Position numbers and translations under genes: made by a program
The notes under the pieces: generated by a model
Database searches by the model: none
What the model saw: the letters and a program-made list of their open reading frames with translations, nothing else
Told to the model about the DNA's origin: nothing
From: Ignavibacterium sp.
GTDB lineage: Bacteria > Bacteroidota > Ignavibacteria > Ignavibacteriales > Ignavibacteriaceae
NCBI GenBank assembly: GCA_018059515.1
Contig: JAGOXU010000004.1
Span: 1 to 36,928 of the forward strand
DNA length: 36,928 nt
Reading direction: 5' to 3'
Part shown: one piece after another, positions 35,581 through 36,928 of the stretch
Numbering within the stretch: the stretch's first letter is position 1
Layout of the letters: each line of letters opens with the position of its first letter

Positions 35581-35606
35581 TAAAAGCGGGGCATACCCCG
35601 CTTTTA
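35581..35606. terminator. bidirectional rho-independent terminator
   Basis: An 11-bp perfect stem, taaaagcgggg / ccccgctttta, closes the loop cata. A run of A precedes it, giving a long T-tract on the minus strand; the plus strand has CTTTTA. It lies between two convergent genes (ends at 35564 and 35620) and serves both. Confidence 0.92.
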
Positions 35607-35619
35607 AACTTACAATAAA

Positions 35620-36324
35620 TTATACCGGTGGTTCTGCTGGCGGTTCTTCTTCATCATCTTTTCCGCTGCCGCGAATAAAACTCTGATCAAAAAAATCCAT
35701 ACACTTATCCACATCACCTATAAACATTGATGCAATTAAATGAACATTTTTCATAAGTTCATTTTCTATTCCATCGCGTGTTGTACTGGTGGTAGTTTTT
35801 TGTGCAGATACTTCACCTATCTTTTCTAACTGTGCTTTGCGTGCGGCTTTAAAATTAGTTAAATAATTTTCGGCATCAGATTGTATTGCTGCACCGAGTG
35901 CAGCGTTGTGTCTTTCACTTGCCGCCGCAAACCTGCTCATTAGTGTTTCTATATTTGCAAGATTTGCCTGCCTGTATTCGGTTACACCGTTGGGGTAAAA
36001 CTCCTGGTACTCTGCTGATTCTTTACCAAAGTTACCAAACACAATACCTTCCTTTTTACTAACAAAATCCTTAAAGTTTTCAAACAGGTTATTCATAGTA
36101 ACCGTAAGACCCTGTTGTATTGCAAACTTTGTATCTTCATTTGTCATTGCACCAAAGTAAGCGGTGTATGCGGCGGTTGTTGCAGTAATCATTGTGGTAA
36201 ACTGGGCAGTTCCGTTATTTGCAGATAACCTTTCTAAATGTATCTCTGCAAATTTTTTCATATTATCGTCACTGATTTTATCAGTATCGAAATGGTTTTT
36301 AAAGAGCTTTTTTAGATCGATCAT
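35620..36324 (-). CDS. uncharacterised 234-residue helical protein
   Basis: Not recognised. The ribosome site is strong (AAAGGAGG, 5 bases before the ATG), so the gene is real. The protein is mostly helical: LKKLFKNHFDTDKISDDNMKKFAEIHLERLSA, a small-residue-rich helix (TTMITATTAAYTAYFGAM), then EFYPNGVTEYRQANLANIETLMSRFAAASERH. It ends in an acidic, Pro-rich tail (DDEEEPPAEPPV). There is no signal peptide and no certain membrane helix. It is a single-gene unit with the 42-bp repeat array about 150 bases upstream of its start. A cytoplasmic structural role is possible, but nothing shows it. Confidence 0.75.
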   Translation of the reverse strand: MIDLKKLFKNHFDTDKISDDNMKKFAEIHLERLSANNGTAQFTTMITATTAAYTAYFGAMTNEDTKFAIQQGLTVTMNNLFENFKDFVSKKEGIVFGNFGKESAEYQEFYPNGVTEYRQANLANIETLMSRFAAASERHNAALGAAIQSDAENYLTNFKAARKAQLEKIGEVSAQKTTTSTTRDGIENELMKNVHLIASMFIGDVDKCMDFFDQSFIRGSGKDDEEEPPAEPPV

Positions 36325-36400
36325 CTCGACCTCCTTTATATTAATTGAACATTAAGTTATTTAGATGGGAGGTTTTTGATGGGATATTAACCCCACCCCA

Positions 36401-36419
36401 AATCCATCCCCGATGGATT
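36401..36419. repeat. short inverted repeat, possibly a dispersed palindromic element
   Basis: AATCCATC and GATGGATT form an 8-bp perfect stem with a CCC loop, preceded by a C-rich stretch (CCCCACCCCA). The layout, AAATCC-TCCC then a G-rich arm, resembles the element at 408-443 inside the secreted protein gene. No T-tract follows on the plus strand (TAAAAATT), so it is a poor terminator. Confidence 0.45.
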
Positions 36420-36475
36420 AAAAATTCCTTAAATATTTAATTTGTCCATTTTTTGCCCAAAATAAAGGTTTTCAA

Positions 36476-36744
36476 TTTCCATTTTTGGAAGTACGATCCA
36501 ACGATTGTGGAGCCCTATTTCCATTTTCGGAAATACGACCCAACGGTTATGGAACCCTTTTTCCATTTTTGGAAATACGACCCAACGGTTGTGGAGCCCT
36601 ATTTACATTTTTGGAAGTACGATCCAACGGTTGTGGAGCCCTATTTCCATTTTCGGAAATACGACCCAACGATTGTGGAGCCCTATTTCCATTTTTGGAA
36701 ATACGACCCAACGATTGTGGAACCCTATTTCCATTTTTGGAAAT
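36476..36744. repeat. tandem array of a 42-bp unit, about 6.4 copies
   Basis: Units begin at 36476, 36518, 36560, 36602, 36644 and 36686, with a partial seventh from 36728. Each reads like tttccatttttggaaatacg followed by acccaacgattgtggagcccta. Copies differ mainly by transitions (att/gtt, gat/gac, aag/aaa, ttt/ttc before gga). The first half of nearly every unit can form a small hairpin (TTTCC with GGAAA). Units are contiguous, with no spacers. All three plus-strand frames stay open because 42 is divisible by three and the unit has no stop, so an open frame here is not evidence of a protein. Confidence 0.92.
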
Positions 36745-36928
36745 GCCATTCTGAACATTCTGAGCCGTATTCTGAATATTACGAACTCGGTTTTGGTTAA
36801 TTTGGGGTTTTTTAAGTTTTTTAGGGGAATGTAAATTAAGGATATACCGCCTTACCTTATTTTACGCAATAGTGTATAATTAACTAACGCAAATAAAATG
36901 AATTTATTGGGAAAAGGCAAGTGGGAAA

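Follow-up and report, generated by a model that had tools for sequence, protein, structure and literature searches.

A 42-bp tandem array near the end of the stretch of DNA analyzed here (the window, 36,928 nucleotides) lies 151 bp upstream of the start of a previously unannotated gene encoding a 234-residue protein, and the two are linked. The gene and the array, the latter a lattice of palindromes, occur together in two classes of one phylum. The side on which the array lies is fixed by the protein clade, and the period of 41 or 42 bp and the palindromic symmetry are kept while the sequence itself turns over. The array is best read as the DNA half of a two-part genetic unit whose other half is the adjacent gene. 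That it is the cis-partner of its neighbor is the main point missed by an initial annotation of the window.

The array and its neighbor in the window

The window is an entire contig (C261) of a fragmented genome (G000, 3.42 Mb in 358 contigs), and its principal features are provided in Table 1. According to Tandem Repeats Finder, the array has a period of 42 with 90% matches, no indels, and a score of 442, and it is the sole tandem array of the window at a score of at least 40; the copy number of about 6.4 in the initial annotation was correct. Past 36744 the repeat continues as a degenerate stretch to about 36786, and 184 bp separate the array from the contig end. Nearly every unit contains an inverted repeat, (A)TTTCC..GGAAA(T), which, as had been claimed, is unaffected by T/C substitutions in the loop. 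In one unit, 36601-36642, it is broken by the sequence TTTAC. In each unit, a second, weaker palindrome (B) is centered 21 bp from the first (A), giving the full 42 bp two-fold symmetry (column-shuffle p=0.004). A CRISPR array was rejected given that the units are contiguous and have no unique spacers, and intrinsic curvature arising from phased A/T tracts was ruled out by the lack of excess power at periods of 10.5 or 21 bp. A dif-like site was considered in the conserved distal flank, where the match is weak. Also near the array are a CheW-like gene and a chemotaxis receptor-like gene.

Table 1. Location of the array, its partner gene, and associated features in the window
Feature	Position	Strand	Basis or remark
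42-bp tandem array, 6.4 near-identical units	36475..36744	none	Tandem Repeats Finder and unit listing
Palindrome A, dominant, example ATTTCCATTTTTGGAAAT	36685..36702	none	dyad center 36693.5 (dyad analyses)
Palindrome B, weaker	center about 36714.5, 21 bp beyond A	none	in relatives, second center 21.0 bp off
Distal flank of the array, AAGGATATACCGCCTTACCTTATTTTACGCAATAGTGTAT...	36797..36924	none	86% identity over about 129 bp to the orthologous locus of G003
Spacer between array and gene start	36325..36474	minus	GGAGG just before the ATG
234-residue gene, protein partner (MIDLKKLFKNHF...MDFFDQSFIRGSGKDDEEEPPAEPPV)	35620..36324	minus	open reading frame listing and homologs
Intrinsic-terminator-like hairpin, 3' of the gene	35581..35606	minus	sequence

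A comparison by eye of the spacer with that of the orthologous locus in a sibling species, G003, reveals a common block, GGGGTGGG...CCCATC. Members of the protein family are about 224-244 residues in length. The 234-residue protein is predicted to be mostly helical, and an AlphaFold model calculated from an input of 4 sequences is poor, with a mean pLDDT of 60. A fold search of the PDB with this weak model returned nothing significant, the top match (LemA) having an E value of 0.8. There is no confident match to the family in Pfam, NCBIfam, PHROGs, or PADLOC and no relative in the PDB by sequence, nor was a DNA-binding domain found by sequence searches. Matches to Pfam Phage_nozzle (E 5e-4, below its cut-off) and to PADLOC PDC-S06, each in one of 17 members, were treated as chance matches of a helical protein. 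The most conserved positions of the family are F12, T74, P111, L190, and the aspartate of a C-terminal FD motif, and no invariant column points to a catalytic site. The median pI is 9.1; some members are acidic, and the close ortholog in G003 has a pI of 4.9 and an acidic tail. On the basis of the conserved positions and the median pI, a binding or structural protein is therefore favored.

Linkage and symmetry across relatives

Family- and order-wide searches revealed homologs only in G000, G001, G003, and four genomes of another genus. A search of the phylum led to a distant GC-rich genome, G311, with six copies of the gene, each having a 41/42-bp palindromic array on one side (three upstream and three downstream). 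In the distant family to which G311 belongs, the protein is present in 44 of 204 genomes, with up to 11 copies in each.

The strength of the linkage was assessed at 44 homolog loci, 9 from the Ignavibacteriales and 35 from the distant family. A locus was counted when the strongest periodicity in one 600-bp flank was 41-43 bp or double that value with at least 50% matches. As can be seen from the counts, 42 of the 44 loci qualify, with 27 arrays upstream and 15 downstream. The exceptions are G057 (L167), for which no array was detected, and L226, which has no downstream sequence to test. The same periodicity test is passed by 11 of 400 positions drawn at random from G311 and, among 270 size-matched genes from three genomes, by 5, two of which adjoin gene-less arrays already recognized as being of the same kind. 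Because many of the loci are orthologs, they are not fully independent; their array sequences, though, are largely unrelated. When 88 lags were compared in the 600 bp upstream of ten homologs, a lag of 42 was top in eight, including the window locus; in the ninth a lag of 41 was top with 42 third, and the tenth (G057) gave no clear signal. The median copy number is about 7 for upstream arrays and 6 for downstream arrays, and the median distance from the gene is 61 bp for the former and 0 bp for the latter. In all 42 cases the nearest protein neighbor has its array on the same side.

Arrays from different genera have unrelated sequences, and so do even those of paralogs within a single genome; around most homologs in the Ignavibacteriales there are 42-bp arrays of wholly different sequence. 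Some arrays are built of 41-bp units. Dyad symmetry was observed at p<0.05 in 40 of the 42 arrays of the large set, and in a first set of 17 arrays whole-unit symmetry reached p<=0.025 in 15 by column shuffles. The two non-symmetric arrays of that set are L056 and L176, the latter beside a gene fragment, and neither adjoins an intact family gene. In 7 of 16 42-bp arrays examined singly, the top two dyad centers lie exactly 21.0 bp apart. Such a spacing follows if the 42-bp unit is palindromic, and spacing and symmetry are thus one property rather than two. Examples of palindrome A in relatives are TTGCCACCGGTGGCAA, CCAGAGCTCTGG, GGGACGTACGTCCC, and ATTGTAAACTTTTACAAT. Palindrome B is weak in many arrays; in several arrays of the upstream clade in the distant family, B is near-constant (CCGGAAAACTTCGG and variants) and A is variable.

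The initial annotation had held that the hairpin is kept as its loop base changes, and here it understated the case. At stem position 11-22, 13 units have a U-A pair and 11 a C-G pair, and in another genus the stems are fully different. Note that in G074 (L154, L153, L152) several versions of the palindrome A stem coexist, all with full compensation, namely ATTGTAAA/TTTACAAT, ATTGCAAA/TTTGCAAT, and ATTTCC/GGAAAT. The innermost dyad positions are self-complementary at frequencies of 0.59 at offset 0.5 and 0.67 at offset 1.5.

Loci with more similar proteins tend to have more similar arrays, as judged from 6-mers without regard to strand. The Spearman correlation between protein identity and array similarity is 0.33 for the 42 loci and 0.29 for the distant family alone, and these values were reached in none of 2000 permutations.

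Further arrays and mobility of the unit

The array of the window is not a one-off. A second array in G000 (C103:585-860), 87% identical to the first, lies beside ppk, and related arrays occupy several intergenic sites in sibling species; the array counts per genome are samples rather than whole-genome totals. The corresponding locus of G003 also has a 42-bp array, upstream of that genome's ortholog of the 234-residue gene, and its units align without gaps to those of the window, though much changed. A further array of the same family, downstream of tsaD, is common to G001 and G003. The suggestion of a dispersed element in the initial annotation is thus partly right. Arrays are also present away from any detected family gene.

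Several other repeats were observed in these genomes. Between the second G000 array and ppk there is a distinct 51-bp tandem repeat (L155 1048-1229, GTTAAGGACGAAATATTGCTAACCAAAGCAATATC...). On contig C42 of G003, at about 381 kb (L063 906-1177), 13 units of 21 bp (AAACGTACGTTCCTTAATATA) each contain a AACGTACGTT palindrome, and no gene of the family was found within the 20-kb stretch surrounding them. The open reading frame to the left resembles an integron integrase. A 22-bp array of 16 units (CGTGTTACAAATTCGTGCCATT; L097 4091-4449), with a period near two turns, occurs in G012, a genome without the family. The 42/21-bp array of G003 at L056 3304-3553 is of unrelated sequence, displays no dyad symmetry, and has as neighbors genes named by eye as acyl-CoA synthetase-like and aldehyde/P5C dehydrogenase-like.

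The unit moves or is lost, since the content of the ppk locus differs among genomes: G001 contains the 3' part of the gene, the contig ending inside it, G000 only the array, and G004 neither. The ends of G001 contigs within the gene probably reflect near-identical copies that broke the assembly. Two copies in G001 (L177 and L178) lie directly before polyphosphate kinase genes, one being ppk and the other a PPK2-like gene recognized by eye. No homolog of the protein was found in IMG/VR or in phage or plasmid collections (72,556 plasmid records), and thus nothing points to carriage by a plasmid or phage. In G003 (L173), a 15-bp word from a terminator-like hairpin, AAGGCACGATTAACA, is present ahead of the distal flank and again behind the gene, reminiscent of the insertion or duplication of a block at a terminator. 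Isolated C-terminal pieces of the 234-residue protein (MDFFDQSFIR...) adjoin 42-bp arrays in G001 (L021/L176) and in G074 (L154 368-448), the piece in G074 starting at its own ATG.

Possible functions and related systems

As to mechanism, we lean tentatively, at slightly less than an even chance, toward binding of the array DNA by the product of the linked gene. This helical protein, alone or as an oligomer, would recognize the palindromes as two-fold-symmetric sites. With a spacing of 21 bp, or roughly two helical turns, these sites would all present the same face of the DNA, and protein oligomers would then coat or bridge the array. The outcome might be self-regulation of the gene, the holding together of DNA copies, or organization of the locus, and gene-less arrays may be sites served in trans, or remnants. 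The pairing of the innermost dyad positions fits recognition of double-stranded DNA better because the loops of RNA hairpins need no self-complementarity. The co-variation of array and protein backs recognition without proving it, given that cognate pairs and shared descent both predict such a correlation; against DNA binding, it could reflect common descent instead.

As the main alternative, the array may work as RNA, forming a string of hairpins on the gene's own mRNA, at the 5' end in one clade and at the 3' end in the other, to which the protein or another factor would bind, giving rise to autoregulation or an RNA-protein body. A shared transcript would accommodate an array either before or after the gene, and changes in the stem columns are compensated. 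Compared with shuffled sequences, the array of the window folds more stably on both strands, with the greater difference in the gene sense (z -4.3 and -5.7), but good folding is to be expected of any perfect inverted repeat. G-T mismatches exceed A-C mismatches on the gene-sense strand (97 versus 63), although counted per array the bias is not significant (21 versus 11, p=0.11). Furthermore, the innermost dyad positions, which would be loop in RNA, are paired in roughly half of the cases (0.52), a search of Rfam over the window array returned no match even at E<=5, and gene-less arrays exist. RNAalifold, when applied to 24 units, predicts no pairs or consensus structure, whereas counting on a named structure shows covariation. 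Taken together, a function as RNA appears rather unlikely. The array could also be a passive minisatellite riding with a mobile, multi-copy gene, with slippage and unequal exchange copying the unit length and thereby keeping it at 42 bp. Such an origin would account for the homogenization of units within an array and for the turnover of gene and array, both of them multi-copy, at the ppk locus. The sequence has changed beyond recognition between lineages, however, and yet the 41/42-bp period and the symmetry survive; neutral drift should have altered the one and lost the other. The array side likewise stays fixed by clade, and a passive repeat is in our estimation decidedly unlikely.

A mobile system of the REP/RAYT type, in which the protein mobilizes or processes the palindromes, is suggested by a gene that adjoins its own palindrome family, by paralogs with different palindromes, by extra array copies elsewhere, and by the co-variation. 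There is, however, no HUH/Y1 signature, with the 17 members lacking a Pfam Y1_Tnp match at E<=0.01, and the invariant columns give no hint of a catalytic site. Y1_Tnp genes occur with or without arrays, G001 having arrays and no Y1_Tnp, and the array is tandem and one-sided rather than consisting of one REP per end. We consider such a system highly improbable. The remaining alternative is a protein of 14-residue repeats encoded by the array itself, proposed in the initial annotation as a gene in the making. The unit length is divisible by three, and, as had been stated, three plus-strand frames are open throughout the window array. The minus strand also has long open reading frames. The HFWKYDPTIVEPYF frame constitutes a 115-codon open reading frame that begins at a TTG at 36453, and the window has no start with a ribosome site. 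The proposal fails because, in the orthologous array of G003, the HFWKYDP frame is interrupted by stops and the one plus-strand frame that is open lacks an ATG start; the array is non-coding. In addition, both leading frames of the G001 tsaD array contain stops, and the 41-bp units of some arrays are at odds with a coding repeat. A repeat protein is scarcely credible.

Returning to the protein paired with a palindrome lattice, we propose, with somewhat greater reserve than for DNA binding itself, that the helical family, with up to 11 paralogs per genome and a private 42-bp double-palindrome lattice for each, may represent an undescribed phylum-specific DNA-array/protein system. Its pairs would be mutually distinct, with a sequence that evolves fast and a spacing that does not, and would all serve one task, which might be segregation, locus anchoring, cohesion, or defense. 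The unit is apparently undescribed so far: no description of it was found in the openly accessible papers searched on tandem or palindromic repeats in Ignavibacteria, Bacteroidetes, and Hymenobacter, and one may exist in subscription papers. A tight link of one protein family to one DNA architecture across classes of very different base composition is rare, and it suggests that a new player is at work in some basic handling of DNA (or RNA). The linkage accounts for arrays otherwise listed as junk repeats in these genomes and provides an example in which the conserved property is spacing rather than sequence. A multi-paralog genome would offer a ready set of private protein-DNA pairs for tests of mutual specificity.

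Of the known systems, bacterial minisatellites or VNTRs are likewise tandem and homogenized, with a copy number that varies between loci; unlike these, the arrays described here have a fixed partner gene, a fixed period, and palindromic symmetry despite unrelated sequence. In partition systems of the StbA, ParB, and ParR types, a centromere-like repeat array lies beside the gene of its binding protein; here, too, an array lies beside a gene, whose product may bind it. No ParB, ParR, or StbA match to the family was found in Pfam or NCBIfam, and the structure model is too weak for a judgment of the fold. StbA of plasmid R388, a ParB-like protein for which no motor is required, binds the stbDR array (PMC3098194). 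As in the present unit, a single small protein gene adjoins an array of short repeats, and further copies of the motif occur at other sites of the replicon. The stbDRs are 9-bp direct repeats spaced by 2 bp, however, rather than palindromes in 42-bp units, and StbA is plasmid-borne, whereas the 234-residue family is absent from the plasmid records searched.

RAYTs (TnpAREP) and their flanking REPs are reported to coevolve (PMC2817692), and a co-variation of gene and palindromes was observed here as well (Spearman 0.29-0.33). In both cases the gene is linked to its own palindromes, which occur also elsewhere, and paralogs have different ones; BIMEs are similarly clusters of regularly spaced palindromes (PMC2817692). 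In contrast, the present protein lacks any known domain and does not belong to the Y1/HUH transposases, and the arrays are few per genome in the sample. A RAYT gene lies between inverted REPs that carry a GT(A/G)G tag, whereas here one continuous 42-bp lattice lies on one side only at nearly every locus. By analogy, then, the RAYT-REP and StbA-stbDR systems would resemble the present unit in outline, as a gene beside the repeats that it handles.
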